41,426 nucleotides of DNA. Source: Candidatus Nanopelagicaceae bacterium (lineage in GTDB: Bacteria > Actinomycetota > Actinomycetes > Nanopelagicales > Nanopelagicaceae). Shown in pieces: positions 16,088 to 34,895 of this stretch. A program made the translations under genes and the position numbers. Under the pieces are notes generated by a model that saw only the letters and a program-made list of their open reading frames with translations, did not search any database and was not told the origin of the DNA. Numbering within the stretch: the stretch's first letter is position 1; the number at the start of each line of letters is the position of its first letter. The stretch spans positions 1-41,426 of the forward strand of contig CANGLK010000011.1 of NCBI GenBank assembly GCA_947454735.1. The letters run 5' to 3'.

Positions 16088-16917
16088 CTCGTAGAGTGTG
16101 GATTGTCGGCCCAGTTTCAATTGACCGTGTTCTCTATTTAGATCAATTACCCCAGCAAGGATCGTTTACACGTCCATCCCGAATCATTGAGCGAATCGGT
16201 GGCTCATCTGGAAATGTTGCACTCGCACTCGCAGCAACAGGAATTGAGACGGGATTTATTAGTTACATCGGTGGAGATGAGAATGGAAGAAAGATTGAAA
16301 AGTCTTTCTCCGAAAGCAATATTTCACATCTTCACCTTCAACAAGTTGTTGGTGAGAGCAACCATGCACTTGTAATGGTGGATAGTTCATGTGAGCGCAC
16401 CATCGTCACTCTTACCGATAGCCACCTTGCAGAAATCTCAGTGAAAGAAATCGATTTCCGAAATAACGACATTGTTGTTTTCTCACTATGGCGTCCATTC
16501 TTTCTCGATCATTTCAATCAGATAAAAAATATTGGATGCACGATGGTGGTGGGTCTCGAGGCGCTCAATGACCCGCACCTATCTGGTGCAGATTTCGCAA
16601 TCGGCAGCGAGGCAGAACTTGGTGGTGCACTCCCATCCCACCATTTCGATAGGTTTGCGACAATTGTGGTGACGAGAGGTGCTGCGGGGGTAGATCTCTA
16701 TTACGGCGACGGACACGAGCACTTTGACTCACAAGCCACCGTCATTCTCGACTCTACGGGGGCAGGGGATTCATTCCTCGCTGGTTTTCTCTCTCATCTG
16801 GCGCTCAACGCTCAAGATTTGCGCTCAGCTATTCAATATGGAGGGCGTTGGGCGGCCGATACCTTGGCTATTGAGGGTTCGCAGCCCGCTCCACCCCCCT
16901 CTATAACAATTAGGTAA
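16084..16917 (+). CDS. PfkB-family carbohydrate/nucleoside kinase
   Basis: A ribokinase-fold kinase of 277 residues, using ATP to phosphorylate a sugar or nucleoside hydroxyl. The N-terminal signature GGSSGNVALALAATG lies at about residues 39-53. The catalytic anion-hole motif is STGAGDSFLAGF near residue 222, with the base Asp present. Its ATG overlaps the previous stop (ATGA). In this context it may phosphorylate the sugar released by the preceding ADP-ribosylglycohydrolase-like protein. The substrate cannot be assigned from sequence. A separate promoter region follows, so it is probably the last gene of its transcript. Confidence 0.82.
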   Translation: MTRRVWIVGPVSIDRVLYLDQLPQQGSFTRPSRIIERIGGSSGNVALALAATGIETGFISYIGGDENGRKIEKSFSESNISHLHLQQVVGESNHALVMVDSSCERTIVTLTDSHLAEISVKEIDFRNNDIVVFSLWRPFFLDHFNQIKNIGCTMVVGLEALNDPHLSGADFAIGSEAELGGALPSHHFDRFATIVVTRGAAGVDLYYGDGHEHFDSQATVILDSTGAGDSFLAGFLSHLALNAQDLRSAIQYGGRWAADTLAIEGSQPAPPPSITIR

Positions 16918-17002: not shown

Positions 17003-18403
17003 ATGAGCACTGTAGCTCTGGTCGCACTAGCTCGACCTACCTTTGATCTCGCATGCGCACAGGCTAATTTTGATAGCGCCCGCGCTCTCCTCGCAGATCT
17101 CGGCGCGACAGTGGTCGGACCAGCAGAACTTGTCATGACTGTTGAAGATGTTGCAGCGGTCACATTGCCTGAGGCTGATCTCCATATTCTCTTTATGGCT
17201 TCCTTCTCAGATGCATCTCCTGCCGTTGAACTACTTGGTGCAGTCAAAGGGCCAATCCTTGGATGGTCGATGCGCGAACCTGGTGAAGTGGGTGAACGTC
17301 TCAAACTCAATTCAATGTGTGGAGTAAATCTCGCAGCACATGCGCTAATGGATGCAGGTCAATCGATTCGTCACATCCATGGAAATGCAGATGAATCGCA
17401 TGTGCGAACCGCAATTGCTGACGCGCTGGCAGGAAAGCTTCCAGCAGCTATCACACCAGCGAATATCTCTGGAGATCGCGCACCGCAAGGGGTTGCAGAT
17501 AAAGCATTTGCATGGCTTAAGAATAAGAAAGTTGGAGCAGTTGGAGAGGCGCCAGTTGGTTTCACTCCTTGTCTCTTCGATGGCCCAAAACTCAACTCAC
17601 TCTTTGGTTTAGATGTCCGACAAATTTCAATCGATAATGCTTTTGAGAGAATCTCTGCAGTTGATCCCGCTCGCGCTGATAGCGCCTATGCGGCCGCACT
17701 TGCAGATCAACCATCACTTGGGGATGTCAATGTTGAGCAAGCTAAAAAAGTCTATGGCGTAGAAGTTGCTCTCGATGATTGGCGCGAAGAAGATGCTCTT
17801 GATGCAATTGCAATTCGTTGCTGGCCAGAGTTCCCAACTGATCTTGGTGCTTGTATCTGCTCTTCACTCGGCCGACTCTCTGATCGCGGAACAGTAACGA
17901 CCTGTGAGCGAGATGTTCTTGGCGCTGTAACGATGTTGGTCTGTGAAGCACTCGGCTCTGACGAAAACTATCTCGTCGATATTGTTGATCTCGTTGAAAA
18001 AGAAGGCCTATTGCGACTTTGGCACTGTGGTTCTGCAGCAACAAAACTTGCAGCTGATCCAAAGAGCGCTACGCAATATATCCACTGCAATCGCAAGCTT
18101 GGCGTTGCAGGTAATTTTCCGCTCAAGACGGGACCGGTAACACTCTTCCGTATTGATCGGGATGTAGATCCGAGCAACAGCACGGGTTTACGTATGGTTG
18201 TGAGTCGAGGGGAATCAATCCCAGCTCCCAATCACTTCCAAGGCAATACAGCGACAGTTCGAACAGAGCCAGATGCTGCTGTCTTGGTGAATGGAATAGT
18301 CACAGGTGGATACCCACATCACTTAGTCATTTCTTGGATTGATGTGAGACCGGGTATCCGCAAAATGGCAGACATGTTAGGGATCCCCCTCACTGAATGG
18401 TAA
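17003..18403 (+). CDS. L-fucose/L-arabinose isomerase-family protein; candidate sulfoquinovose isomerase
   Basis: A 466-residue sugar isomerase-fold protein. The C-terminal half carries the fucose-isomerase-like segment CWPEFPTDLGACICSSLGRLSDRG followed by CERDVLGAVTMLVCEAL (about 274-314), and a late His-rich part (HCGSAATKLA, NHFQGNTATV, HHLVISW). Family members are metal-dependent aldose-ketose isomerases. It opens an operon with an ABC importer, a YihV-like kinase and a YihT-like aldolase. The expected job is therefore to turn the imported aldose (sulfoquinovose in my model) into the ketose used by the kinase. Classical SQ isomerase YihS is of another fold. A strong TTGGAGGA precedes the ATG. 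Confidence 0.75.
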   Translation: MSTVALVALARPTFDLACAQANFDSARALLADLGATVVGPAELVMTVEDVAAVTLPEADLHILFMASFSDASPAVELLGAVKGPILGWSMREPGEVGERLKLNSMCGVNLAAHALMDAGQSIRHIHGNADESHVRTAIADALAGKLPAAITPANISGDRAPQGVADKAFAWLKNKKVGAVGEAPVGFTPCLFDGPKLNSLFGLDVRQISIDNAFERISAVDPARADSAYAAALADQPSLGDVNVEQAKKVYGVEVALDDWREEDALDAIAIRCWPEFPTDLGACICSSLGRLSDRGTVTTCERDVLGAVTMLVCEALGSDENYLVDIVDLVEKEGLLRLWHCGSAATKLAADPKSATQYIHCNRKLGVAGNFPLKTGPVTLFRIDRDVDPSNSTGLRMVVSRGESIPAPNHFQGNTATVRTEPDAAVLVNGIVTGGYPHHLVISWIDVRPGIRKMADMLGIPLTEW

Positions 18404-18444
18404 GTAACTCAACCCCTCAAACCCAAAAGGCAAGGACTACACAA

Positions 18445-19875
18445 ATGAAAGTTAAAGGACTAAAGACCTTCGGCGCAGTCGCGACAGTTGCATTGGCTCT
18501 TCTTGCAACATCTGTTCCAGCGACCTTCGCTGCTGGTGAAGAATTCGGTACGACATGTGCAACTGAAGGTGTTAGCACAGGAAACATGACTACATCTTTG
18601 ATCTGCGTTAAGGGATCAAATGGCAAGCTCACATGGCAGCGCGTTCGCTTGGGTGCTAACTCAGGTGCTCCAGTCGCAGCATTGAAGGCACCAAAGGGAA
18701 CTATTGAGTTCCACCACTGGCGCCCAGAAGACAAGGTAGTGCTTCAGAGCATCATCGATAAGTTCCAGGCTGCAAACCCAGGAACATTCGTTAATCAGGT
18801 GATCATGAACTCTGTCGATTACACAAACCTTGCATACTCAAAGATCAGCGTGAATAAGAAGGCAGCTGTCTTCGTTACATCACGTGGTGGACAGTTCGAC
18901 CAGTTCTACAATGGTGGACTTCTTCGCGATCTCTCATCAGATCGCTATATTAAGCAGAACGTTATTCAATCTGCACTTACACCTGCAACTGTAAATGGCA
19001 AGGTATACGGAGTTCCGTACCAGTCACTCTTTAATAACCCGATCTACAACACAGAGCTCTTCGCTAAGAAGGGTTACAAGGTTCCTACAACTTGGACTGG
19101 CCTTCTTGCATTCTGTAAGCAGGTCAAGGGCGATGGAATCATTCCTTTCGCATGGCCAGCTGCAACTCGCGGTAACGCAGGACAGATCCTTAACTCATTC
19201 ATGATGAACTCAGCTCCACTTGCTGAGGTTAAGGCTCATGTTGCTGCAATCGAATCAGGTAAGGAAGACCTTACAACTGACTGGTTCAAGGGCATTGCTA
19301 CAAAGTACAAGCAGATGAACGATGCAGGTTGTTTCCCAGCTAACGTCGCTGGTTATAACGACACAGTCGCTCCAGCTGACTTCGCTTCAGGCAAGGCTGC
19401 TGTCTACCCAACAGGAACATTTGGAATGAGCACAGTTACAAAGCTCAACCCAGATATGAAGGGCAAGATGGGAATCTTCGGCTTGATCACAACAGATGCC
19501 AAGCCATACTATGAAGGAATTACAAATAACACCTTCATCTTGAGCGTCAATGCAAAGGCATCAGCAACAGATCAGAATATCGCTCGTGCTTTCATCTCTT
19601 ATCTCACGACTGCGCAAGCAGCACAGGAGTATGCAGTTGGAACATCACAGCATGTTTCAATCATTAACGTTGATTACGCAGACAACATTGATCTCTTGAA
19701 CACATCAGCGATCATGGGCAAGAAGCTTCTTCTTGCACCACGTTTCTTATTCACCAACGTCAACAATGTACGTAACCCACTTGAGGATGCTTTGATTGCG
19801 ATTGGATCTGGTGCTGATATCAACACCACATTGACCAATACTTCAAAGACCATCAAGCAAGGTATCGGTGCATAA
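18445..19875 (+). CDS. CUT1-type ABC transporter sugar-binding protein
   Basis: An extracellular solute-binding protein (family 1) that should deliver the sugar to the permeases encoded next. I chose ATG 18445 because it gives a clean signal peptide (MKVKGLKTFGAVATVALALLA, cleavage near TFA-AG). The in-frame ATG at 18397 lies inside the isomerase stop and would add a polar leader. There is no lipobox, which is unusual for a Gram-positive binding protein. A short segment with a Cys pair (TTCATEG, SLICVKGSNGKLTWQRV) precedes the binding domain and may serve as a surface attachment or spacer. Codon use is strongly biased to GCA, TCA and ACA, suggesting high expression. Confidence 0.88.
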   Translation: MKVKGLKTFGAVATVALALLATSVPATFAAGEEFGTTCATEGVSTGNMTTSLICVKGSNGKLTWQRVRLGANSGAPVAALKAPKGTIEFHHWRPEDKVVLQSIIDKFQAANPGTFVNQVIMNSVDYTNLAYSKISVNKKAAVFVTSRGGQFDQFYNGGLLRDLSSDRYIKQNVIQSALTPATVNGKVYGVPYQSLFNNPIYNTELFAKKGYKVPTTWTGLLAFCKQVKGDGIIPFAWPAATRGNAGQILNSFMMNSAPLAEVKAHVAAIESGKEDLTTDWFKGIATKYKQMNDAGCFPANVAGYNDTVAPADFASGKAAVYPTGTFGMSTVTKLNPDMKGKMGIFGLITTDAKPYYEGITNNTFILSVNAKASATDQNIARAFISYLTTAQAAQEYAVGTSQHVSIINVDYADNIDLLNTSAIMGKKLLLAPRFLFTNVNNVRNPLEDALIAIGSGADINTTLTNTSKTIKQGIGA

Positions 19876-19896
19876 TTAAGACCACAGCAACAAATG

Positions 19897-19927
19897 AGCT
19901 GACCTCCACCAATGGTGGAGGTCAGCT
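19897..19927 (+). terminator. Perfect 14-bp hairpin between binding-protein and permease genes
   Basis: AGCTGACCTCCACC and GGTGGAGGTCAGCT pair without mismatch around a three-base AAT loop, 21 bases after the binding-protein stop. The run behind it (TGTTGCACC) is not a proper T-tract. It is more likely a partial terminator or an RNA-stabilising hairpin that keeps binding-protein mRNA in excess over permease mRNA than a full stop. It also lies inside the open frame that leads into the permease. Confidence 0.7.
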
Positions 19928-19979
19928 TGTTGCACCATTTAAGAAGAAGCGCAAAAAGGAGTCCTTAATCCTCCTTGCG

Positions 19980-20822
19980 ATGGCCTCTCCTGCCCTTGCT
20001 ATCTACGCTTTCCTCTATCTCTACCCATCAATCTCAAATCTTCTCTACTCAACAACCCGATGGGATGGCGTCACTAAGCCGATCCAGATCGGTCTTCGTA
20101 ACTTCACTTATCTCCTCACCAACGATGACCTCTTCATGAAGGTCCTTGGTAATAACTTTAGATTTACCTTGATAGTCGTAATTTTCCAGACTTCACTAGC
20201 TCTGATGTTTGCGACATTCCTCGTGAAGAACACGAAGATGACAATCTTCCTTCGCACTCTTTACTTCTTCCCAACGATTCTCTCCTCAGTCTCAGTTGGC
20301 CTTATTTGGAACTTCCTCTACGACCCAAACTTCGGCTTCATCAATGCCTCACTTAAATTCTTTGGACTCGATGCTCTTGCAAAGAACTGGCTTGCAGATC
20401 CAAAGCTCGCGCTTTATGCGATTGCAGTTACACAGATTTGGTTCCACACCGGCCAGATGGTGATCATCTATGTTGCTGGCCTGCAGCAGATTCCTAGCGA
20501 TCTCTACGAGGCGGCTCAGGTAGATGGTGCATCTCGTTGGCAGCAATTTAAGAGCGTGACCTGGCCAATGGCTTTGCCAACTACGGCAGTAGTTGTCGCC
20601 TACACAACTATTCAGACCTTTAGGGCCTTCGATCTGGTCTACTCAATGGCGCAGCCGGCTTCGCTCAATGGTTCCGATCTTCTTGTAAACCTTGTTTATA
20701 ACTCAGCATTCGTGGGTTACAAATTTGGTTATGCCGCTGCGCAATCAATTTATCTCGTGATCTTGGTGCTTCTTGTTACATGGCTCCAGCGTCGTGTCCT
20801 CAAGAATAAGACGGAGGATTAA
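19980..20822 (+). CDS. CUT1-type ABC transporter permease (MalF/UgpA-like), start uncertain
   Basis: An inner-membrane permease with six helices and the EAA loop EAAQVDGASRWQQFKSVTWPMALP that contacts the ATPase. The first ATG in frame is 19980, giving 280 residues but cutting into the first helix and removing the basic leader. The frame is open upstream to the binding-protein stop and reads sensibly (KKKRKKESLILLAMASPALA). It contains no ATG, GTG or TTG there. The natural start could be the ATT at 19875, which overlaps the stop as TAATT. An AAGGAG at 19956-19961 is too far (18 bases) from ATG 19980. Coordinates given are the conservative ones. No ATPase gene is adjacent. Confidence 0.85.
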   Translation: MASPALAIYAFLYLYPSISNLLYSTTRWDGVTKPIQIGLRNFTYLLTNDDLFMKVLGNNFRFTLIVVIFQTSLALMFATFLVKNTKMTIFLRTLYFFPTILSSVSVGLIWNFLYDPNFGFINASLKFFGLDALAKNWLADPKLALYAIAVTQIWFHTGQMVIIYVAGLQQIPSDLYEAAQVDGASRWQQFKSVTWPMALPTTAVVVAYTTIQTFRAFDLVYSMAQPASLNGSDLLVNLVYNSAFVGYKFGYAAAQSIYLVILVLLVTWLQRRVLKNKTED

Positions 20823-20824
20823 GA

Positions 20825-21640
20825 ATGTTGTATAAAGTTATTCGTAGTTCACTCTTGACCGCCTTCGCACTCGCGGTGATTGTGCCTACATCGATTGTAA
20901 TTCTCGGAACCTTTAAGACCGACCTGGAAATTTATACAAAGCCACTTGCTCTTCCTAAGTCATTTAATCTCGACAATTTCAGAACTCTCTTTGCAGATGG
21001 TCAGATGATCGTTCCATTCCGTAACTCTGTGATTGTCTCGGTCTTCTCGGTCTTCTTCACCCTTCTCTTTGCAAGCATGGTCTCATTTGCAATCGCTCGC
21101 AGCATCACGATCACCGGAAAGGTGATGTTGGGGCTCTTCACACTTGGCCTAGCAATTCCAGGTCAGATTAATATCGTTCCTATCTTCACCCTCTTTGTGA
21201 AGCTCAATCTCAACAACTCTCTCTTTGGCTTAATTCTCGTCAATATTGCGCTCACGCTTCCGATCTCAGTATTTATTATCACTGCATTCTTTAAAGATCT
21301 CCCTAAAGAGATGTTTGAATCGGCTGGACTCGATGGGGCAAATCATTGGCGCATATATCGCTCCATCGCCCTGCCATTGGCTCGTCCTGCAGTAGGTGCG
21401 ACGGGAATCTTCCTATTCGTAATTACCTGGAACGATCTTTTGTATCCGTTGATGCTCATTAACGAAGCATCGAAGAAGACCCTGCCACTGGTCTTGATTG
21501 ATTTCCGCGGAGAGTTCGCAACTAGCTACAGCATGCTCTTTACAGCGATTATCGTCGCTTCAATTCCAATGATTGTGATGTATGTCGTCGCGCAAAAGTC
21601 ATTTATTGCAGGTCTCACTGCGGGCGCTGTGAAAGGCTAG
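20825..21640 (+). CDS. CUT1-type ABC transporter permease (MalG/UgpE-like)
   Basis: Second permease of the importer, 271 residues, six membrane helices, with the EAA loop ESAGLDGANHWRIYRSIALPLARP at about residues 164-187. It lies two bases after the first permease behind GGAGGATTAAG. In CUT1 systems the two permeases form a heterodimer that takes substrate from the binding protein. The ATPase must be supplied from elsewhere, as with MsiK-type shared ATPases in actinobacteria. Confidence 0.93.
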   Translation: MLYKVIRSSLLTAFALAVIVPTSIVILGTFKTDLEIYTKPLALPKSFNLDNFRTLFADGQMIVPFRNSVIVSVFSVFFTLLFASMVSFAIARSITITGKVMLGLFTLGLAIPGQINIVPIFTLFVKLNLNNSLFGLILVNIALTLPISVFIITAFFKDLPKEMFESAGLDGANHWRIYRSIALPLARPAVGATGIFLFVITWNDLLYPLMLINEASKKTLPLVLIDFRGEFATSYSMLFTAIIVASIPMIVMYVVAQKSFIAGLTAGAVKG

Positions 21641-21644
21641 CCCC

Positions 21645-22349
21645 ATGAGTACACCAGCGACCCATCTTGCTCCACAGAGAGCCGCCAAGATTGCCAAGCA
21701 ATTAACTGAGTTAATAGAGATCCAAAATCTCGGCCCGGGGGAGAAGTTACCTCCTGAGCGCCAATTAGCTGATTTGCTTGAGGTATCTCGTCCATCACTT
21801 CGAGAGGCGCTCCATATCTTGCAGGCGCAGGGTCTTGTGCAGATTCGCCATGGCCAGGGAACTTTCGTTCAAGAGCCACTCGTCGCGCAAGAACTTCGGG
21901 CCTCAATGATGGCGACAACTCATGACCTCAATGAACTCTTTGATGCCCGTGAAGTACTTGAGGTCCCTGCATCGAATTGGGCGGCGCTAAAGGCGACTAA
22001 GGAAGATATTCGTATCTTGCGCACAACTCTAAATCAGATCGATACCATCTGTGCGAAAGAGCCGATTGATTACGATCAATTGCAGATGCTTGATGCAAAG
22101 TTTCACCTCACAATTGTGGGTATCGTCGGGAATAGATTTATTAATCAGACTCTCAACGTTCTTCAAGATGTAATGAAGATGTCAATGGATACAACTCTTC
22201 GCCTGCCAGGACGTAAAGAGATTTCACGTAAAGAACATAATGAGATTCTCGATGCCATCGAAAATGGTGATGGAGTCCTAGCCTCCAAAATTACTCATCA
22301 ACATATCTCTGGAGCTCGTGCAACAGCTCTCGCCGACGCCCGTGGCTAA
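21645..22349 (+). CDS. GntR-family (FadR subfamily) transcriptional regulator
   Basis: A 234-residue repressor-type protein. The N-terminal winged helix-turn-helix has the GntR signature LGPGEKLPPERQLADLLEVSRPSLREALHILQAQGLVQIRHGQGTFV (about 28-74). An all-helical FCD ligand-binding domain follows with candidate metal ligands in DAREVLE, DAKFHLTI and a late His pair (KEHNEIL, HQHISG). It sits in the operon between transport and kinase genes, so it probably senses an intermediate of this pathway. The GGT-N3-ACC sites at 16981, 25224 and 25297 are of the type this subfamily binds and are its likely targets. Confidence 0.9.
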   Translation: MSTPATHLAPQRAAKIAKQLTELIEIQNLGPGEKLPPERQLADLLEVSRPSLREALHILQAQGLVQIRHGQGTFVQEPLVAQELRASMMATTHDLNELFDAREVLEVPASNWAALKATKEDIRILRTTLNQIDTICAKEPIDYDQLQMLDAKFHLTIVGIVGNRFINQTLNVLQDVMKMSMDTTLRLPGRKEISRKEHNEILDAIENGDGVLASKITHQHISGARATALADARG

Positions 22350-23229
22350 TATTCAAGTCGTCTGCATTGGCGTCATCACCATGGACACAATCGGCCTCGT
22401 AGAAAAATATCCTTCAGAAGATGAACGAGTTATCGCCCAAGAGATAGCACGCGGCGGAGGCGGCCCTGCCGCCGTTTCAGCTGTAGCTCTCTCCAGATTA
22501 GGAATCTCCACCGCCATCGTTGGCACAATCGGAGACGACTCCGATGGCCGCGAAATTCTTGAGATATTTAAGCGTGAGGGTGTCGATACAACAGGCATTT
22601 CCATCGGTACTTCACCGACTGCTGGAAGCGTCATTGTTGTCTCAAAGGAACATAGCGCTCGTGCAATTAGTACGCGCCAACCAATGGTTCAAGCTCCAGC
22701 AAATGCAGCGGCGAAGAAACTCACGAGCCAGGCTCTCTGGGTTCATTGCGATCACGTTGGAATCAATCGACTTGAAGAGCTCGGGATTTCACGGGGAGCT
22801 GGGCCAAAGATCTCATTTGATGCTGGATATGGCGTTGAGGACTTTGATGTAAATCTCGTAGATCTCTTTGTTCCCACAGATCGTCAGATGGCCCTTCGCC
22901 ATCCCGGGCTATCTCTTGAAGATGCGATGGCGAAAGATGCAATCAGCGCCGGAAATACAGTTGTCGCCACTTGCGGCTCCGAAGGCAGCGCTGCTTACTC
23001 AGATTCCTTTCTCACTGCGCCGGGATTTGCTGTTGATGTAGTGAGTACCCTCGGCGCAGGAGATGTCTTCCATGGTGCGCTCATGGCTCAAGTTGTTGAA
23101 GGACGCCCAATGGCGCAGGCGCTTCGTCGCGCAAATGCCGTTGCGGCACTTTCATGCCGTGGCCTCGATGGCCAATCTGCAATTCCAACCCTGCAAGAAC
23201 TCAATACCTATCTGGAGGCACAATCATGA
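22342..23229 (+). CDS. PfkB-family kinase resembling sulfofructose kinase YihV
   Basis: A ribokinase-fold sugar kinase. From this GTG start it has 295 residues, close to the 298 of E. coli YihV. An upstream GTG at 22318 is the alternative; 22342 is preferred because it yields the usual short N-terminus (ANIQVVCIGVITMDTIG). From memory, similarity to YihV is unusually specific: the start CIGV.TMD, then GGGGPAAVSAVALSRLG, IVGTIGDDSDG, and the C-terminal VDVVSTLGAGDVFHGAL followed by ANAVAALSC. YihV Lys27, which contacts the sulfonate, aligns with Arg29, so substrate recognition may differ in detail. It is followed, with ATGA overlap, by a YihT-like aldolase. A fructose-type kinase remains possible. 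Confidence 0.75.
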   Translation: MANIQVVCIGVITMDTIGLVEKYPSEDERVIAQEIARGGGGPAAVSAVALSRLGISTAIVGTIGDDSDGREILEIFKREGVDTTGISIGTSPTAGSVIVVSKEHSARAISTRQPMVQAPANAAAKKLTSQALWVHCDHVGINRLEELGISRGAGPKISFDAGYGVEDFDVNLVDLFVPTDRQMALRHPGLSLEDAMAKDAISAGNTVVATCGSEGSAAYSDSFLTAPGFAVDVVSTLGAGDVFHGALMAQVVEGRPMAQALRRANAVAALSCRGLDGQSAIPTLQELNTYLEAQS

Positions 23230-24110
23230 GAAGAGCACTAACAAACCTTGCACGCCCATCTGGTGCTCTCGCTATGGTTGCCGTAGATCAACGTGAAGCG
23301 CTCCGTGGAATGTTTGCCGCTCATCAGAGCACGCCAGTACCAGATTCACAGCTCACTCAATTTAAAGTTGATGTAGCGCGCGAGCTCTCGCCTTTTGCAT
23401 CCGCGCTCCTTGTTGATCAAGAGTTTGGTATCGATGCGATTATTGATCAGAAGGCACTTGCGCCAACATGTGGTCTCATTGCAGCTGCCGATTTATTGGT
23501 AGGACCGGCCGGGGGAGCAGCAACAGATACAGCGGTAGATCCTGATGTTGACCCACTTCGTATGCGTGATATCGGATCGGTCGGCCTTAAGTTTCTAGTT
23601 CTCTGGCGTAATGATGAGAGCCCAGAATCACGTTTGAAGTTGGTCGATGAATTTAACGCGCTCTGCGAAAAGTCAGGGCTCCCATCAATTATTGAGGTAA
23701 TCGTTAAGCCACCAACAGATACTTCACGTTCCTTTGATCGCGAAGAAGAGTTGATTATCGCTGCAAAGGAGGCTGCCAATTGGAAGGCTGATCTCTATAA
23801 GGCAGAGGTTCCATTTCACGGTGAAGGCGATCTGCTTTCCATCACTCGTAACTCACAGCGAATCACAGAGGCAGTTGGAACTCCTTGGGTTGTTCTCTCT
23901 AATGGCGTGAAGGCGCCATTCTTCGCTGATGCTGTCAAGGCATGCGCACAAGGCGGAGCGAGCGGATTCCTTGCAGGTCGCGCAGTCTGGGCAGATATTG
24001 TCGGTTCAGCAGATATTCCTGCAGCTCTCCGCGAAGTATCTATTCCACGCCTAGAGAAGCTTGCAGAGATTGTTGATCAATACGCGAGACCTTGGTCAGA
24101 CGTTCGCTAA
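23226..24110 (+). CDS. Class I aldolase resembling sulfofructose-1-phosphate aldolase YihT
   Basis: A 294-residue TIM-barrel aldolase of the LacD/YihT family (E. coli YihT has 292). Recalled YihT features match along the whole length: AMVAVDQREALRGMFAA, LTQFKVD, LSPFASALLVDQEF, LVLWRNDES, EFNALCEKSGLPSIIE, SFDREEELIIAAKE, ADLYKAEVP and GASGFLAGRAVWADIVG. Lys192 in DLYK is the expected Schiff-base residue. YihT splits sulfofructose-1-phosphate into DHAP and 3-sulfolactaldehyde. Tagatose-bisphosphate aldolase (LacD) is the alternative in the same family, but the neighbouring sulfolactate genes favour the sulfonate reading. ATG overlaps the kinase stop. Confidence 0.8.
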   Translation: MRRALTNLARPSGALAMVAVDQREALRGMFAAHQSTPVPDSQLTQFKVDVARELSPFASALLVDQEFGIDAIIDQKALAPTCGLIAAADLLVGPAGGAATDTAVDPDVDPLRMRDIGSVGLKFLVLWRNDESPESRLKLVDEFNALCEKSGLPSIIEVIVKPPTDTSRSFDREEELIIAAKEAANWKADLYKAEVPFHGEGDLLSITRNSQRITEAVGTPWVVLSNGVKAPFFADAVKACAQGGASGFLAGRAVWADIVGSADIPAALREVSIPRLEKLAEIVDQYARPWSDVR

Positions 24111-24113
24111 GAG

Positions 24114-25223
24114 CTAAGCCCACATCTCAGCAAGGGTTACAACGCGACCCTCCCGAATAGATTTATGAGCTGCAAGTCCGGTCGCAACGCTAGTTACACC
24201 ATCGTTCAGAGTTACCTCTGCTGGCGTTGAATTGAGTAGCGCATCACGGAACTTAACGTGTTCGATGTAGCTTGCGCCAAAATGGTGGCCCATAACGCGT
24301 ACATCGTAATTGTGCACATGTTTGACTTCGTTTCCGCGACCTCTACTTGCACCACTCGACCATTCGGTACGAGCGCCATAATTGTCGCGACGTGAAGCTT
24401 TGAGAGTTTGTGATGGCAAGAATGATTCAAGCTTTCCTTCACTACCAACCACTGTGAGAATCTCTTTATCAAATGTGCCTTCTGCAAACATACAGAGATC
24501 GAGCATGCCTCGTGCGCCATTGGCATATTCGAGAATAACAAATGCATTATCGAGCATATCTGCCTGCTTGCCATCGTACTTTTCATCAAGGTGGTTGACC
24601 GCCTGGTTACCTGATGCAAATACTCTGACAGGATTTTCGCCAACGACGATATCCATCAAGTTAAAGTAATGGCAGCACTTCTCAACCAAAGTTCCACCGG
24701 TGCGCTCTGTAAAGCGATTCCAGTTATCAATTTTTGGATAGAACGGCTCGCGATGTTCGCGAATTGAAACTTGATGAATCTTTCCCGCCTCGCCCGCTTT
24801 AGCGCGTTGGATCACTTCAGTCACCGGTGGCATAAATCGATATTCAAGTGCCATCCAGGTGAGCGCCTTTCGCCCTTCACCCCATGCGGTGATCGCCTTG
24901 CAATCTTCTATCGTTGTAGCGAGCGGTTTTTCAATGAGAGCTGCAATGTCGGTTGCAAGCACATCTTTGAGAACCGCGGCGTGAGTGTCATTGGGCGTCG
25001 CAACCACGACTGCATCGACCAACCCTGATTCAAGGAGGGCGCGGTGATCCGTAAAAGTCTTAGCTCCCGGCGCCATCTCCAACGAGGCATCGAGGCTCGC
25101 CTGATGCGGGTCGGCGAGGGCGGTAACGACTCCATCGCCCATGACCTTAATGTTCACAATGTGCTCGCGCCCCATGCTGCCGGCGCCGATGATTCCATAT
25201 CGAAGTTCGCGTCCCATGGTCAA
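24114..25223 (-). CDS. Gfo/Idh/MocA-family protein; candidate NAD-dependent sulfoquinovosidase
   Basis: The N-terminal Rossmann domain has GIIGAGSMGREH and the family motif IEKPLATT (about residue 98), followed by the alpha/beta substrate domain. The region REHREPFYPKIDNWNRFTERTGGTLVEKCCHYFNLMD contains the catalytic-type Lys-x2-His. I recall that a family of NAD-dependent sulfoquinovosidases (GH188), found in sulfoquinovose clusters of Arthrobacter and Agrobacterium, has this fold, and I suspect this gene is one. Ordinary inositol or sugar dehydrogenase is the alternative. The frame starts with TTG 25223; ATG 25217 is an equally good start. The gene converges on the aldolase and diverges from suyA. 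An operator-like site abuts its start. Confidence 0.7.
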   Translation of the reverse strand: MTMGRELRYGIIGAGSMGREHIVNIKVMGDGVVTALADPHQASLDASLEMAPGAKTFTDHRALLESGLVDAVVVATPNDTHAAVLKDVLATDIAALIEKPLATTIEDCKAITAWGEGRKALTWMALEYRFMPPVTEVIQRAKAGEAGKIHQVSIREHREPFYPKIDNWNRFTERTGGTLVEKCCHYFNLMDIVVGENPVRVFASGNQAVNHLDEKYDGKQADMLDNAFVILEYANGARGMLDLCMFAEGTFDKEILTVVGSEGKLESFLPSQTLKASRRDNYGARTEWSSGASRGRGNEVKHVHNYDVRVMGHHFGASYIEHVKFRDALLNSTPAEVTLNDGVTSVATGLAAHKSIREGRVVTLAEMWA

Positions 25224-25237
25224 AGGTTAGACCACTT
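25224..25237 (+). promoter_or_regulatory. Operator-like site 1 of putative GntR regulon
   Basis: AGGTTAGACCACTT has the GGT-N3-ACC inverted repeat and the ACTT flank, with 13 of 14 bases identical to site 2 at 25297. It abuts the start codon of the minus-strand Gfo/Idh/MocA gene, where a bound protein would block its transcription. Confidence 0.55.
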
Positions 25238-25245
25238 GCCTTATT

Positions 25246-25273
25246 TTGGGCAGGGGTATAGACAAAATACGCT
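25246..25273 (+). promoter_or_regulatory. Candidate promoter of suyAB operon
   Basis: TTGGGC (25246-25251) and TACGCT (25268-25273) are separated by 16 bases and fit -35 and TANNNT -10 elements. The resulting transcript would start near 25280 and run through operator-like site 2 before suyA. Prediction from pattern only. Confidence 0.35.
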
Positions 25274-25296
25274 CAAAACCTTTAGACTTCCCGCAG

Positions 25297-25310
25297 AGGT
25301 CAGACCACTT
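25297..25310 (+). promoter_or_regulatory. Operator-like site 2 of putative GntR regulon
   Basis: AGGTCAGACCACTT contains the perfect inverted repeat GGTC-A-GACC, which fits the FadR-subfamily consensus TGGTNNGACCA apart from the first base. It lies 52 bases before the suyA start and downstream of the candidate promoter, a repression position. Confidence 0.6.
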
Positions 25311-25361
25311 CCTCCTAGGGGAGCGGAAAGACGCACGACTATTCAAGGGCGAGGGGCATAT

Positions 25362-25664
25362 ATGGCAATCACACCTCCACAGTTCTTGCTTCACCACGAT
25401 GGCGATAACGTCGCAGTGGCGATGGAAGATCTGGAGCCAGGGACTCTTCACGGCCGTTCCGTGAAGCAGGGAACTGAGAGCACAGCAGTGTTGAATCACG
25501 CAATTCCATTGGGTCATAAGTTCGCTTTGACCGATCTCGCCGAGGGCGACGCAATTATTAAGTACGGCATCAAGGTTGGCCTTGCTTCTGCAGCAATTAA
25601 AAAAGGTGATTACATCCATACACACAACATGAGGAGTTATCGATGGGAAGCAAGCCGCGCTTAA
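25362..25664 (+). CDS. suyA: Sulfolactate sulfo-lyase small subunit (SuyA-like, SAF domain)
   Basis: A 100-residue SAF-domain protein equal in size to SuyA and to the N-terminal part of altronate dehydratase. Conserved stretches are LNHAIPLGHKFALTDLAEGDAIIKYG and the end DYIHTHNMRSYRW, where the His residues are likely metal ligands. With SuyB it would split (R)-3-sulfolactate into pyruvate and bisulfite. The ATG follows GAGGGG at five bases spacing; longer in-frame extensions upstream run through the promoter and operator sites and are unlikely. It overlaps suyB by 22 bases. UxaA-type hydro-lyases are the alternative family reading. Confidence 0.82.
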   Translation: MAITPPQFLLHHDGDNVAVAMEDLEPGTLHGRSVKQGTESTAVLNHAIPLGHKFALTDLAEGDAIIKYGIKVGLASAAIKKGDYIHTHNMRSYRWEASRA

Positions 25665-26809
25665 CAGGATACCGTCGCCAAAATGGCACGATGGGTATCC
25701 GCAATCACGTCATTATCTTGCCTCTCGATGACCTCTCTAATGCAGCTGCAGAAGCAGTCGCAAAGGTTATTCCTGGCACTCTCGCTCTTCCACACGCATT
25801 CGGTCGTTTGCAATTCGGTGAAGATCTAGAACTTACCTTCCAGACACTTATCGGAACTGGTCGCAATGCAAATGTTGCAGCAGTTGTCGTTATTGGTATC
25901 GAACCAAAGTGGACTCAGAAGGTTGCAGATGGAATCGCATCAACAGGTAAGCCTGTTGCAGCTTTCTCTATCGAAGGAAAGGGTGACCTTCAAGTCATCG
26001 CTGATGCAAGCCGCGTAGCTGCGATGTTCCTCCAGGATGCATCAGAGATTCAGCGCGAGCAAGCTGAAATCGGCGACATGATCATGTCAATTAAGTGCGG
26101 CGAGTCAGATACAACTTCTGGCCTCGGTTCATGCCCAACAACTTCACAGGCTGTTGATCGCTGGGTTGAAGCAGGCGGAACAGTCTTCTTCGGTGAGACA
26201 TCAGAGCTCACAGGTGGAGAACACCTCATTGCAGATCGTTGTATCGATGATGCTTGTCGTAACTTGTTCCAGACAACATACGACAATTACATCAAGGTCA
26301 TTGAATCAACTGGTGCAAACCTCCTTGGCTCACAGCCAACACAGGGCAATATCGCTGGTGGACTTACAACAATTGAAGAGAAGGCACTTGGCAATATTGC
26401 TAAGACTGGATCTGTCCCAGTTGTTGGCGTTCTCAAGCCAGCTCAAGAGCCAGATCCAAAGAAGAAGGGTCTCTACTTCATGGATACCTCTTCAGCAGCT
26501 GCAGAGTGCGTAACTCTGATGGCTGCAGCTGGCGCAGTAATTCACTTATTCCCAACAGGTCAGGGCAACGTGATTGGTAACCCAATCATTCCTGTATTGA
26601 AGTTGACTGCAAATATCAAGACTGCACGCAGCATGAAGGAGCATATGGACCTTGATGTCTCTGGTCTTCTTCGCTACGAGTATGACTTGCCTAAGGCTGG
26701 CGACATGATGATGGATGTCATCGAGCGCACAGTTAACGGTCGTCTCTGCACCGCTGAGGTAATGGGTCACCGCGAATACACATTCACTAAGCTCTATATC
26801 TCTGCGTAA
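25643..26809 (+). CDS. suyB: Sulfolactate sulfo-lyase large subunit (SuyB-like, UxaA family)
   Basis: A 388-residue protein of the UxaA/altronate-dehydratase large-domain family. It reads like SuyB rather than a sugar-acid dehydratase: LPHAFGRLQFGEDLELTFQTLIGTG, VVIGIEPKWTQK, KCGESDTTSGLGSCPT (dehydratases have CGGSD..SGI.ANP here), QGNIAGGLTTIEEKALGNI and GLYFMDTSSAAAECVTLMAAAGAVIHLFPTGQGNVIGNPIIPVLKL. The reaction would be (R)-3-sulfolactate to pyruvate plus bisulfite in the cytoplasm. Flanking SlcC- and ComC-type dehydrogenases fit exactly this step. Strong GCA/TCA/CCA codon bias suggests high expression. The ATG follows GAGGAG. Confidence 0.85.
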   Translation: MGSKPRLTGYRRQNGTMGIRNHVIILPLDDLSNAAAEAVAKVIPGTLALPHAFGRLQFGEDLELTFQTLIGTGRNANVAAVVVIGIEPKWTQKVADGIASTGKPVAAFSIEGKGDLQVIADASRVAAMFLQDASEIQREQAEIGDMIMSIKCGESDTTSGLGSCPTTSQAVDRWVEAGGTVFFGETSELTGGEHLIADRCIDDACRNLFQTTYDNYIKVIESTGANLLGSQPTQGNIAGGLTTIEEKALGNIAKTGSVPVVGVLKPAQEPDPKKKGLYFMDTSSAAAECVTLMAAAGAVIHLFPTGQGNVIGNPIIPVLKLTANIKTARSMKEHMDLDVSGLLRYEYDLPKAGDMMMDVIERTVNGRLCTAEVMGHREYTFTKLYISA

Positions 26810-26828
26810 GCGAAAGATATTTAACTTC

Positions 26829-27788
26829 GTGATTCTTATTTCAGAAGATGTATGGGGAGCTCCTTTCGAGAAACTTGGAGGGAGCTTCCCCATTCTTCGA
26901 GAAGATAATTTATGGCAGGAGCCAGAACTTCTTAAAGAGAAGATCAAAGATGCGACTGCACTTGTTGTGCGTAACCGTACTCAAGTTACTGCAGAGATCA
27001 TCGCTGCTGCGCCAAAGCTACGCGTTATCGCACGTGCAGGTGTTGGCCTGGACAATATTGACCTCAAGGCGGCAGATGCAGCTGGAGTTGTAGTTGTTGC
27101 AGGTCTTGGCGCTAATGCCGTCAGCGTTGGTGAATTAACACTCGGCCTCGCCCTTGCAACGCTTCGAAATATTCCGGCGCATGATGTTGCTACTCATGAC
27201 GGTAAATGGATTCGCACACCAGGTCGCGAGCTCTCTGGACTCACCTGGGGACTTCTTGGATGTGGTGCAACTGGTATGGCAACCGCACGTTTGATTCAAG
27301 GATTTAATTGCAAAGTTTTGGGCTATGACCCATTTGTGAAGGCGGATGATCCACGCCTTGCACCACTCAATATGTCTATGCACTCACTTGAAGAAGTTCT
27401 CCAAGGTGCAGATGTCATCAGTATCCATATGCCATCGACTCCTCAGACAAATAACACGATTAACACAGCCACTCTTGCGATGATGAAGCCAAGTGCAATC
27501 ATCGTTAACGTTGGACGCGGAGAAGTGATCAACGAGGCCGATCTCATAGATGCTCTTAAATCAAAGGTAATTTCTGGCGCGGCACTTGATGTTCGCGCTC
27601 AAGAACCGCCAATAGTGGGCGAACTAGAGACGCTTCCCAATGTGATTCTCGCTCCACACGTAGCTGGCATTACGGCTGAGAGCCAGCTTCGTATCAATGA
27701 AATCTTGACAGCAAATATCGAGCTAATGCTCAACGGAAAGGCTGCAATCAATGCAGTCGGATCTATTAAGGAGAGCACTCGCTCATGA
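26829..27788 (+). CDS. slcC: D-isomer 2-hydroxyacid dehydrogenase; candidate (S)-sulfolactate dehydrogenase
   Basis: An NAD-dependent dehydrogenase of the SerA/D-2-hydroxyacid family, 319 residues from a GTG start. NAD-binding motif GLLGCGATGMATARLIQ is at about 138-154. Catalytic residues are visible: Arg in VNVGRGEV, Glu in AQEPP and His in APHVAGIT. It lacks the C-terminal ACT domain of true SerA. Between suyB and a ComC-type gene the likely reaction is (S)-sulfolactate to sulfopyruvate, as described for SlcC of Chromohalobacter. A glycerate or phosphoglycerate dehydrogenase cannot be excluded by sequence alone. Confidence 0.75.
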   Translation: MILISEDVWGAPFEKLGGSFPILREDNLWQEPELLKEKIKDATALVVRNRTQVTAEIIAAAPKLRVIARAGVGLDNIDLKAADAAGVVVVAGLGANAVSVGELTLGLALATLRNIPAHDVATHDGKWIRTPGRELSGLTWGLLGCGATGMATARLIQGFNCKVLGYDPFVKADDPRLAPLNMSMHSLEEVLQGADVISIHMPSTPQTNNTINTATLAMMKPSAIIVNVGRGEVINEADLIDALKSKVISGAALDVRAQEPPIVGELETLPNVILAPHVAGITAESQLRINEILTANIELMLNGKAAINAVGSIKESTRS

Positions 27789-28771
27789 CACAACTGACCG
27801 TCGGCGCTGCAATCACAAAGGCGACAGAGCTATTAGTCGCAGCAGGAATGGATTCAGCAAAGGCGGCAACGAGTGCACATGCAATCGTTGCAAGCGATCG
27901 TTGGGGAATCGGCAGCCATGGCTTAATGCGTCTTCCCTTCTATCTAGATCGCTTGAAGGCGGGCGGAATTAATCCGAAGGCAGAGCTGAGGAAAGTCACA
28001 GATATGCCAGGCCTTGTGATCTTTGATGGCGATGATGGACTCGGACATTGGCAGATTCAGCAGGCGGCGCAGCTCGCTGCAGAACGCGCAAAGGTCAATG
28101 GAATTGCAGCTGTTGGCGTAGGACGCTCTTCGCATTGTGGAGCACTTGGAATTTACGTCTGGCCGATGATTGATGCAGGTTTAGTCGGAATTGCATTTAG
28201 TACAGGACCAGCAGTGATGCCACCGACTGGTGGAAATCAGCCACTTCTCTCAACCTCACCCCTTGCAGCAGGTATCCCTACGAATCCTCCAACAGTTGTT
28301 GATCTCGCAACGAGTGCTGTTGCTCGCGGAAAGATTCAAGCAAAGGCTCAAGCTGGCGCAGAACTAGAACCAGGCTGGGCATTTACAAAAGATGGTGCCC
28401 CTACAACGGATGCAAAAGAGGCTCTTGCAGGAATGCTCGCACCACTGGGTGGCGCTAAAGGTTATGCACTTGCAGTTCTCGTTGAATCTCTTACCGGCGT
28501 ACTGATCGGCCCTACTCTTTCAAAAAATATTCCAGATATGTTTAATCACGATTTTGATAGCGCGCCACAAGAGATCGCGCACTTTGTTATTGCAATCGAT
28601 GCATCAAAGCTCTCTGTGGATGGCGATAACAATCGACTCAATGATTTTGCTGGCGAAGTCAAGAACGCTGGTGGTCGACTTCCCGGATCAAAGAGGGTCA
28701 ATCCTGGAAAACTCAACCTCAGTGATGAGATCACAATTACCGATTCTGTTGCTGCACAGTTAGGACTATAA
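27785..28771 (+). CDS. comC: Ldh/Mdh2-family oxidoreductase; candidate (R)-sulfolactate dehydrogenase
   Basis: A 328-residue member of the malate/L-lactate dehydrogenase type-2 family, whose NAD(P) fold is unrelated to Rossmann LDH. Signatures are SDRWGIGSHGLMRLPFYLDRLKAGG near residues 38-62, SSHCGALGIY around 116-125 with the catalytic His, DLATSAVARGKI and PLGGAKGYALAVLVE. ComC of methanogens and sulfolactate degraders belongs here and reduces sulfopyruvate to (R)-sulfolactate. With the SlcC-like neighbour it can invert the (S) form, giving the isomer SuyAB accepts. It overlaps slcC by four bases (ATGA) and is followed directly by the transporter gene. Confidence 0.77.
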   Translation: MTQLTVGAAITKATELLVAAGMDSAKAATSAHAIVASDRWGIGSHGLMRLPFYLDRLKAGGINPKAELRKVTDMPGLVIFDGDDGLGHWQIQQAAQLAAERAKVNGIAAVGVGRSSHCGALGIYVWPMIDAGLVGIAFSTGPAVMPPTGGNQPLLSTSPLAAGIPTNPPTVVDLATSAVARGKIQAKAQAGAELEPGWAFTKDGAPTTDAKEALAGMLAPLGGAKGYALAVLVESLTGVLIGPTLSKNIPDMFNHDFDSAPQEIAHFVIAIDASKLSVDGDNNRLNDFAGEVKNAGGRLPGSKRVNPGKLNLSDEITITDSVAAQLGL

Positions 28772-29764
28772 ATGGTTAAGAGCTACGCCCCAGGCCTTGC
28801 ACTAATCTCGCTATTAGTTGCAACCGCATTTCAAATTAACCATATGCAATCAGCGATAAGCCCACTTGCCCTCTGTGTTGCATTTGGATTCTTGGTTGCT
28901 AACTTCATCAAGTGGCCCTCATTCGCAGCTCCTGCAACGAAGCTCTCTAGTAAGACTTTGATGCGTATCGGTGTGGCCCTTCTCGGTGCACAGGTCAGCG
29001 TTGCATCGCTCAAGGAGATTGGCCTCAAAGGTGTCATCACCGTTGTCATCGTTGTCACCTTCACGATTTTCGGCATCCTTGGCCTCTCCAAGCTCTTCAA
29101 GATGTCAGGAGATCTCGGCTTACTAATCGGTGTGGGTTTTGGCGTCTGTGGTGCAACGGCGGTTGCTGCAATCCGCCCACAGACTCGAGCAACTGAGGAA
29201 GAGACCTCATATGCAATTGGCCTGATCTCCCTCTGCGGAACGCTCTCAATCTTCCTCCTCCCATTTCTGGGTCATCTCTTCAATCTTGATACTCGTGAAT
29301 TTGGTTCATGGGCAGGTGCTGCAGTTCATGATGTTGGACAGGTAGTTGCAACCGCTTCTGTCTGGGGAGATGGCGCTGATAAATATGCAATCGTTGTAAA
29401 ACTTGCTCGAGTCTGCCTCTTGGCTCCGATCGTACTTATCCTTTCGATTCGCCACCGTAAGTGGCTGACATCGCAAGGTGAGAGCGAGACTTCATCTGCA
29501 AAGGTGCCGCTCATTCCATATTTCGTCCTTGGATTTATTGCAGTTGCAACCTTCCATAATCTTGTTGAGATTAATGCGAGATTGCTCGCCGACATCGTCT
29601 TCACAAGCAAGTTATTACTTGGCGCAGGTCTTGTTGCACTCGGCTCTGGCGTTCGTTGGAAGTCAATCCGCGCAATCGGCCCACGTCCTATGGCGATGGG
29701 AATGATTGCCTGGGTGATAGTCGCTGGCGTCGCGTTGGCGGCGGTAAAGGTCACTGGGCTCTAA
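28772..29764 (+). CDS. YeiH/UPF0324-family membrane transporter; putative sulfite/sulfate exporter
   Basis: A 330-residue protein with about nine to eleven membrane segments and the family motifs LMRIGVALLGAQVSVASLKEIG, GVGFGVCGATAVAAIRPQTRATEEETSYAIGLISLCGT and GAAVHDVGQVVATA. The family is annotated as putative sulfate exporter, and members often sit beside sulfonate catabolism genes. As last gene after SuyAB, SlcC and ComC, its likely task is to remove the sulfite released by SuyAB, or its oxidation product, from the cell. Direct evidence for the substrate is limited, so the direction and ion are inferred. ATG follows the comC stop without gap. Confidence 0.82.
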   Translation: MVKSYAPGLALISLLVATAFQINHMQSAISPLALCVAFGFLVANFIKWPSFAAPATKLSSKTLMRIGVALLGAQVSVASLKEIGLKGVITVVIVVTFTIFGILGLSKLFKMSGDLGLLIGVGFGVCGATAVAAIRPQTRATEEETSYAIGLISLCGTLSIFLLPFLGHLFNLDTREFGSWAGAAVHDVGQVVATASVWGDGADKYAIVVKLARVCLLAPIVLILSIRHRKWLTSQGESETSSAKVPLIPYFVLGFIAVATFHNLVEINARLLADIVFTSKLLLGAGLVALGSGVRWKSIRAIGPRPMAMGMIAWVIVAGVALAAVKVTGL

Positions 29765-34432: not shown

Positions 34433-34442
34433 GAGAGATGTA

Positions 34443-34586
34443 ATGGATAACTTTGCAGATTTAACGGGAGCCCCACGCCCCATCGACAAGACGCTCAAAA
34501 TGCGAAAGAACGTTCTCTTCCAGTTCTGGCGATTCATCAGCCTAAATGTTCGTATGGTTGCGATGATTTTTCGAGGAGATCACTAA
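34443..34586 (+). CDS. 47-residue small protein between SQR-like and csoR genes
   Basis: A GGAGAG sequence precedes ATG 34443, and the stop shares a base with the csoR start (TAATG), so this reading frame is well anchored. The 47-residue product has a polar N-terminus, a basic patch (KTLKMRKN) and a moderately hydrophobic amphipathic C-terminal half (VLFQFWRFISLNVRMVAMIF). It could be a short membrane-associated partner of the upstream oxidoreductase. I do not recognise the family. Confidence 0.65.
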   Translation: MDNFADLTGAPRPIDKTLKMRKNVLFQFWRFISLNVRMVAMIFRGDH

Positions 34587-34876: not shown

Positions 34877-34895
34877 TAGAGAAGAAAACCATTAA

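Follow-up and report, generated by a model that had tools for sequence, protein, structure and literature searches.

The gene cluster closest to the one analyzed here was described in 2024 in strain IMCC26103. It contains a GH188 enzyme of the Tyr160 type and was presented together with the suggestion of new sulfoglycolytic pathways (PMC11465081). We analyzed a 41,426-nucleotide contig of a Candidatus Nanopelagicaceae bacterium (GenBank assembly GCA_947454735.1, contig CANGLK010000011.1; hereafter the window) and found that it carries a further member of the IMCC26103 cluster type. The cluster probably gives this acI-type actinobacterium access to sulfoquinovosyl glycerol or sulfoquinovose as a carbon source, by a sulfoglycolytic Embden-Meyerhof-Parnas (sulfo-EMP) pathway combined with desulfonation of sulfolactate. 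This reading is built on family membership, GH188 active-site residues, gene linkage, co-occurrence and the lack of a detected sulfite reductase domain, from which we infer the substrate, every catalytic activity, the sulfolactaldehyde step, export, and the role of an M24-like protein. New here are a survey of the bacterial family, an analysis of the gap in the pathway, a result on sulfite, and the linkage of the M24-like gene.

As described (PMC11465081), IMCC26103 shares with the window the Tyr-type GH188 gene, a gene of the fucose isomerase family, an ATP-binding cassette (ABC) transporter, a regulator, a sulfofructose kinase, a sulfofructose-1-phosphate aldolase, SuyA and SuyB, and a dehydrogenase resembling phosphoglycerate dehydrogenase. 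The gene order of its locus (L034) is that of the window. The account also gives a sulfolactaldehyde (SLA) dehydrogenase, but we detected no aldehyde dehydrogenase in that locus, and the gene meant may be the ComC-like one. Neither the M24-like gene nor the YeiH gene is mentioned in the available text of the account, which is also silent on what becomes of sulfite. Among the papers listed by a literature search, it was the one that paired IMCC26103 with sulfolactate, and none paired sulfoquinovose with Nanopelagicales. Sulfoquinovose clusters have been reported in over 9% of aquatic genomes, with the monooxygenase pathway (sulfo-SMO) named for Actinomycetota (PMC13372026).

Other described systems match parts of the window. 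The sulfo-EMP pathway of Arthrobacter has a YihV-like kinase, a YihT-like aldolase and, in strain AK01, GH188 in common with it (PMC8873060, PMC10755693). In Arthrobacter, a YihS isomerase and an SLA dehydrogenase of the GabD type are reported, and sulfolactate is excreted (PMC8873060); the window instead has an SftI-type isomerase and SuyAB, and its cluster shows no SLA dehydrogenase. An Arthrobacter plasmid cluster (L201) holds a kinase, an aldolase, an aldehyde dehydrogenase and TauE. SqvD-type isomerases occur in the sulfo-EMP2, transaldolase (sulfo-TAL) and transketolase (sulfo-TK) pathways (PMC9594981), and the window has a putative isomerase of this type in common with sulfo-EMP2 and with the hybrid sulfo-EMP1/2 enzyme sets of Proteobacteria and Actinobacteria (PMC9594981, PMC12890257). 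Unlike in sulfo-EMP2, the kinase of the window is of the PfkB kind and the aldolase of the class I kind, not SqiK and SqiA, and pairing an SqvD-type isomerase with partners of the YihV/YihT type makes the set a hybrid. A SqvB-like gene (PF04115) was found in none of five genomes, and in just one of 14 controls.

For the lower half, Paracoccus wurundjeri Merri, like the host of the window, combines SlcC, ComC, SuyA and SuyB with a sulfosugar pathway in a single cell, and its SLA dehydrogenase was likewise not identified; its upper half differs in being of the Entner-Doudoroff type and acting on sulfofucose (PMC12421959). The actinobacterium Rhodococcus koreensis has a plasmid SuyAB cluster (L202) with identities to the window proteins of 74% for SuyB, 53% for the SlcC-like and 54% for the ComC-like protein. 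That cluster differs in having an aldehyde dehydrogenase beside SuyAB and no sulfosugar upper half within the 13 kb seen. A preliminary description of the window, made from the sequence alone, had proposed that living on the sugar of algal sulfolipid would be a notable niche for such a streamlined genome; the arrangement was already known from IMCC26103 (PMC11465081), and a tandem of sulfosugar and SuyAB genes from P. wurundjeri on sulfofucose (PMC12421959).

The cluster and its predicted GH188 gateway enzyme

The host assembly comprises 1.40 Mb in 75 contigs and is 89.5% complete. We assign the host to the acI group of freshwater actinobacteria; relatives in the same genus are IMCC19121 (CP015605.1), IMCC26103 (CP015604.1) and LanE43 (OX376642.1). 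On the plus strand, positions 17003-24110 hold, in order, genes for an isomerase, a binding protein, two permeases, a GntR/FCD regulator, a PfkB kinase and an aldolase. After a minus-strand gene, the plus strand continues with SuyA, SuyB, SlcC-like, ComC-like and YeiH-like genes up to 29764 (Table 1). No ATPase gene for the importer was seen in the cluster, and no dedicated search for one was made. The isomerase, importer, kinase, aldolase, SuyA and SuyB, SlcC, ComC and YeiH named in the preliminary description are open reading frames at the places given there, with matching families. Its list omitted the GH188 homologue lying inside its own coordinates, and the conserved M24-like gene falls just outside them. 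In related actinobacterial loci (L002-L035), the isomerase-to-YeiH genes are 40-99% identical to those of the window and are repeated in set and order, a recurrence beyond chance.

The minus-strand gene resembles a generic Gfo/Idh/MocA oxidoreductase. Its best solved relatives are 8qc2 (Table 1) and 8qc3 (348 bits), followed by the oxidoreductase 8zn9 (294 bits) and a next match at 90 bits. The structure 8QC2 is a crystal structure of a GH188 enzyme (PMC11465081); according to PMC10755693, which also gives the contact residues, enzymes of this family use NAD+-dependent oxidation at C3 to cleave sulfoquinovosides. We transferred these positions to the window protein by counting along the alignment with 8qc2. 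Of nine active-site positions compared, eight are identical to the GH188 reference and the ninth is the published Tyr variant. Lys107, Tyr136, Glu164 (Glu163 in PMC10755693), Arg166, Lys172, Glu189, His193 and His321 are kept in the window and in all 70 aligned GH188 rows (window included, of 81 possible; rows are hits with at least 85% query cover, with identity limits). The sulfonate contacts Arg166 and Lys172 are thus retained, and position 170 is Tyr. Counted from the second possible start of the gene, this Tyr is residue 160, the position that gives its name to the 'Y160' group, of which IMCC26103 is an example (PMC11465081). Judged by these relatives and residues, the gene encodes a sulfoquinovosidase homologue of GH188, the predicted gateway enzyme of the pathway. 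Myo-inositol dehydrogenase was rejected as its identity: TIGR04380 gave only 129 bits (cut-off 355), against 348-349 for the GH188 structures.

The upper and lower halves of the proposed pathway

In the proposed pathway, the ABC importer would take up sulfoquinovosyl glycerol or sulfoquinovose, and GH188 would free the sugar from its conjugate. The SftI-type isomerase would convert sulfoquinovose to sulfofructose, which the YihV-like kinase and YihT-like aldolase would turn into dihydroxyacetone phosphate and (S)-sulfolactaldehyde. Oxidation to (S)-sulfolactate would most likely fall to a GabD-type aldehyde dehydrogenase with a housekeeping role, encoded outside the cluster. SlcC and ComC would then carry (S)-sulfolactate through sulfopyruvate to (R)-sulfolactate, SuyAB would cleave the latter to pyruvate and sulfite; expulsion of the sulfite would be the task of the YeiH-type protein.

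The isomerase has a single NCBIfam match, the SftI sulfoquinovose isomerase model NF048012 (Table 1), and we regard it as putatively of the SftI/SqvD kind. Its score lies far under the cut-off, so the exact sugar is not settled by sequence. A structure model of medium confidence (mean predicted local distance difference test score, pLDDT, 73.5) has a fucose/arabinose isomerase fold; with a root-mean-square deviation near 25 Å over the whole chain against its matches, it supports the fold only. The kinase has sulfofructose kinase as its top solved match, with a modest margin over ribokinase, and is 41% identical to its counterpart in the Arthrobacter plasmid cluster. The aldolase is 46-48% identical to the Arthrobacter plasmid aldolase and to Citrobacter YihT, and 30% to LacD; this low identity and the difference in bit scores (Table 1) rule out LacD. 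A small aldolase tree has long branches and adds little. In the comparison with sulfonate and LacD-type sets that the preliminary description had proposed, the aldolase thus came out as YihT-like and the kinase as nearest to sulfofructose kinase.

SuyB is 56-74% identical to four reference SuyB proteins, and UxaA-family proteins reached at most 38% among the matches listed. The 74% match, from R. koreensis, is flanked by SuyA, an aldehyde dehydrogenase, a major facilitator superfamily transporter, and SlcC/ComC-like genes; a Cupriavidus pinatubonensis protein (60%) lies near hpsN and hpsO, and a Paracoccus versutus protein (56%) adjoins a putative sulfate exporter. Among the best 40 of 316 plasmid records, identity dropped from 55% to 38%, with the UxaA family starting below the gap. 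In a tree of the window, ten of 12 requested loci (two were outside the filtered set) and eight reference rows, the split between SuyB and the UxaA-family, UxaA and GarD rows received 100/100 support, with long outgroup branches. The gap and the tree together rule out UxaA and GarD as identities. SuyB therefore falls in the SuyB clade, with SuyA adjacent, and neither placement that the preliminary description had named as fatal to its proposal was found, namely the aldolase with tagatose-bisphosphate aldolases and the UxaA-type protein with altronate or galactarate dehydratases. SuyAB is a putative sulfolactate sulfo-lyase that would release sulfite from (R)-sulfolactate, and the SlcC-like and ComC-like genes adjoin it.

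We searched for a sulfite reductase domain (PF01077) in five cluster genomes (the window's own, IMCC19121, LanE43, IMCC26103 and the single-cell genome AAA044-N04). It was found in none of them, compared to 11 of 14 controls, in agreement with PMC5301498, which reports that none of its acI strains has assimilatory sulfate reduction. The YeiH-like protein is 30-31% identical to exporters beside SuyAB in two plasmids and scores over the cut-off of PF03601. Because it does not reach the curated cut-off of TIGR00698, its cargo can only be predicted; sulfite export by this protein is likely and is the simplest reading. Farther along the window (32975-36907) are a pyridine-nucleotide-disulfide oxidoreductase, a CsoR/CstR-type-like small protein and a rhodanese lipoprotein (both recognized by eye), and an oxidoreductase with a rhodanese domain, which has counterparts near the YeiH gene in L007, L009, L014, L021 and L025. 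These genes could serve in sulfite or persulfide handling.

We surveyed 151 genomes drawn from the larger family, with thresholds of E ≤1e-60 for GH188, E ≤1e-100 for SuyB and E ≤1e-20 for the M24-like protein, and found GH188 in 38, SuyB in 39 and the M24-like protein in 40. GH188 and SuyB occurred together in 37 of the 40 genomes with either, and this coincidence indicates that the upper and lower halves travel together. The exceptions were G089 (GH188 alone) and G065 and G077 (SuyB alone), which are 73-90% complete. Within the genus of the window, and apart from its own assembly, GH188 was present in 10 near-complete genomes and not in 9. Of the 38 GH188-positive genomes, 22 had a close YihT-type aldolase (at least 74% identity). 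No further genome of the 151 had one; three others had homologues at 34-35%. If our reading is true, single cells of about a quarter of the species of the family (38/151 drawn) would convert a sulfosugar all the way to pyruvate and sulfite, and an algal sulfonate pool could be mineralized without the cross-feeding usually assumed. With no sulfite reductase detected, the sulfur would go back to the water, although acI bacteria reportedly need reduced sulfur.

Several related loci are arranged differently. A sister cluster type, with GH188 55-57% identical to that of the window, has a kinase and lacks a YihT-type aldolase gene (L053, L058, L062, L069, L072, L074, L077 and L079-L081). In L007 (LanE43) and L014, genes resembling 2-keto-3-deoxygluconate kinase, a 2-keto-3-deoxy-6-phosphogluconate-type aldolase, a dehydrogenase and a KduI-type isomerase replace the upper-pathway genes beside GH188 (N-termini judged by eye); in LanE43 the aldolase and the M24-like gene lie 12-21 kb further along. 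Freshwater Burkholderiales (among L036-L078) have a GH188 of 54-59% identity that also carries this Tyr. Some have SuyB and SlcC/ComC-like genes nearby (L045, L049, L061, L064), and others an aldehyde dehydrogenase (L036, L037, L041, L065, L066, L067, L075).

Table 1. Features of the sulfosugar cluster and its M24-like partner, in window coordinates.
Feature	Position	Strand	Evidence
M24-fold protein with degenerate metal site, conserved cluster partner	14124-15197	+	PF00557 23.2 bits; co-occurrence; model and fold; ligand losses
SftI/SqvD-type sulfosugar isomerase (putative)	17003-18403	+	NF048012 256.6 bits (cut-off 700); PF02952 28 bits (cut-off 29.3); fold
ABC importer	18397-21640	+	Binding protein 18397-19875; permeases 19980-20822 and 20825-21640
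GntR/FCD regulator	21645-22349	+	Domain matches
Sulfofructose kinase (putative, YihV-like)	22318-23229	+	Best solved match sulfofructose kinase, 98.6 bits; ribokinase 77.7
Sulfofructose-1-phosphate aldolase (YihT-like)	23226-24110	+	YihT structure 269 bits; best LacD 77
GH188 NAD-dependent sulfoquinovosidase homologue, Tyr160 type	24114-25223	-	Likely start ATG at 25217; 349 bits to 8qc2; residues
SuyA, sulfolactate sulfo-lyase small subunit (putative)	25362-25664	+	SAF domain; 47% to R. koreensis SuyA
SuyB, sulfolactate sulfo-lyase large subunit (putative)	25643-26809	+	GD_AH; identity to reference SuyB; tree
SlcC-like (S)-sulfolactate dehydrogenase	26829-27788	+	D-2-hydroxyacid dehydrogenase; 53% to gene of R. 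koreensis SuyAB cluster
ComC-like (R)-sulfolactate dehydrogenase	27785-28771	+	Ldh_2; NF040650 188 bits (cut-off 500); 54% to R. koreensis
YeiH-family exporter, sulfite likely	28772-29764	+	PF03601 234.7 bits; TIGR00698 174.3 bits (cut-off 232.6)

The sulfolactaldehyde gap and alternative readings

The preliminary description had called the pathway near-complete and proposed that one organism performs both upper sulfoglycolysis and desulfonation. One genome does carry both gene sets. The connecting enzyme from sulfolactaldehyde to sulfolactate was not found in the cluster, and the substrate is a prediction.

This gap is one of several observations that weigh against our reading. No aldehyde dehydrogenase was found in any of 44 actinobacterial GH188 loci (L002-L035 and the ten sister loci listed above) by tblastn with 11 aldehyde dehydrogenase queries, although many of these loci end at contig ends. 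We then grouped 80 aldehyde dehydrogenases from 14 of 20 genomes of the genus, eight with the cluster (seven single-contig genomes and that of the window) and six single-contig genomes without it; PutA-type fusions, short paired fragments and weak (ProA-like) matches were omitted, and the weakest matches were not listed. No multi-member group was restricted to the cluster-bearing genomes. The GabD-type group was not found in the assembly of the window itself (about 89% complete), and although it is the group nearest to the enzymes of described clusters, it is just 36% (Arthrobacter plasmid) and 37% (Rhodococcus) identical to them. Within the upper half, 16 of the 38 GH188-positive genomes (15 of genus g17 and one of g9; six at least 90% complete) had no YihT-type aldolase at E 1e-10, and the kinase is only 32% identical to Citrobacter YihV. 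Leu170 of GH188, through whose backbone the sulfonate is bound, is Tyr in 70 of 70 rows, a constancy that is biased because one of the six patterns used to gather the loci (FYPKIDNW) contains this Tyr. The isomerase, ComC-like and YeiH-like proteins all score below their NCBIfam cut-offs. Finally, PF00174 had one match in the genome of the window (contig C73; 24.9 bits against a 24-bit cut-off, positions 70-146 of 169) and none in the other four cluster genomes, and given this lone fragment sulfite may also be oxidized. The GH188 genomes without the aldolase agree with a remark on a Clavibacter-type cluster in PMC11465081.

Three groups are candidates for the missing step, which a shared housekeeping enzyme may perform. 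An aminobutyraldehyde-dehydrogenase-like group is present in all 14 genomes, the GabD-type group in all 13 single-contig genomes, and a PRK09407-type group in all eight cluster-bearing and four of the six other genomes. By solved structures, the GabD-type group is succinate-semialdehyde dehydrogenase, with 8c54, which we take to be the sulfolactaldehyde dehydrogenase of R. leguminosarum, among near-equal matches. In genome G049 (locus L199), a GabD-type gene 70% identical to this group adjoins an M24-like gene, a weak pointer to the SLA dehydrogenase. The enzyme that oxidizes sulfolactaldehyde where no SlaB is found, also in P. wurundjeri, is a testable question.

The alternative that survives best, though we consider it unlikely, is that the pathway serves another sulfohexose, such as sulfofucose by way of sulfotagatose, with sulfoquinovose a minor substrate or none. 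The isomerase score and its fucose/arabinose isomerase fold are compatible with this, and sulfofucose degraders with SlcC, ComC and SuyAB exist, in which the YihV/YihT-family homologues of the same cluster were not raised on sulfofucose (PMC12421959). However, the characterized GH188 enzymes act on sulfoquinovosides (PMC10755693), and the sulfoquinovose-contact residues are kept. Somewhat less probable still is an exchange of sulfolactate, in which the lower half would run on imported sulfolactate and the upper half would end in export. An SLA dehydrogenase linking the two halves was not found in the cluster, Arthrobacter does excrete sulfolactate (PMC8873060), and lower-half clusters without an upper half exist, as in the R. 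koreensis stretch; yet the genes are contiguous, GH188 and SuyB coincide across the family, and the cluster has no separate sulfolactate importer gene. That the genes act on ordinary sugars or sugar acids (tagatose, altronate, galactarate) and the sulfonate reading is an annotation error is very improbable: tagatose-bisphosphate aldolase and galactarate dehydratase do appear among the nearest NCBIfam models of cluster proteins, with every score below its cut-off, but the aldolase scores, the SuyB tree and the GH188 sulfonate contacts argue otherwise, and the phylogeny already contradicts it.

The M24-like partner

Among 26 actinobacterial loci with the isomerase, 25 also had the M24-like gene; the exception (L062) starts at GH188. 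In the family survey, GH188 and the M24-like gene were both present in 37 of the 41 genomes with either (GH188 alone in G145; M24-like alone in G049, G065 and G149; these genomes, too, are 73-90% complete) and both missing from 110 (Fisher p = 1.5e-30 over the 151 genomes, with relatedness ignored). In a draw of 346 genomes from the phylum, isomerases of at least 53% identity occurred only in the assembly of the window, G239 and G325, and M24-like proteins of at least 40% in the same three. Against a strict tie, five further genomes had isomerases at 30-36%, one of them (G306) with an M24-like match, and 21 further genomes had M24-like matches at 25-35%. The G239 and G325 clusters both have a kinase, aldolase, isomerase, importer, GH31 hydrolase and M24-like gene; G239 also has an aldehyde dehydrogenase, whereas none was detected in the 19.5 kb covered in G325. 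The GH31 proteins of G239 and G325 score higher with the alpha-xylosidase model PRK10658 (488 and 454 bits) than with PRK10426 (235 and 226 bits), presumably the YihQ model, all under cut-off, so the sugar of these clusters is not proven. With these, the M24-like protein recurs beside SftI-type isomerases in two distant actinobacteria (L192, L193). In the Arthrobacter plasmid stretch, neither an M24 gene nor the isomerase was seen.

An AlphaFold model of the M24-like protein (pLDDT 90.4) has a prolidase/creatinase fold. We aligned the protein with Pyrococcus furiosus prolidase, whose metal ligands we take to be D209, D220, H284, E313 and E327. Four of the five are replaced (S208, S219, G285, N313), and the last is kept (E322). 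In 25 M24-like sequences of the family, S219, G285 and N313 never vary and position 208 holds either S or V; six more distant proteins all have G285 and N313, and three have S219. An invariant signature of RH, TR, HHQGG, WNP and K.E replaces the metal site, and metal-dependent peptidase activity is unlikely on these substitutions.

We consider it about evenly balanced whether this metal-free protein is a working part of sulfosugar breakdown in actinobacteria with SftI-type isomerases. It may be a mutarotase feeding the isomerase, the slot supposed for SqvB in Firmicutes, or act on sulfoquinovose conjugates; its job is a second testable question. A literature search for sulfoquinovose with M24 or Xaa-Pro returned only matches unrelated by title and abstract. 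One distant relative adjoins an FGGY kinase and a class II aldolase. In the window, an ADP-ribosylglycohydrolase and a second PfkB kinase (15143-16917) sit between the M24-like gene and the isomerase; their counterparts, not seen in some relatives, lie beyond the M24-like gene in others.

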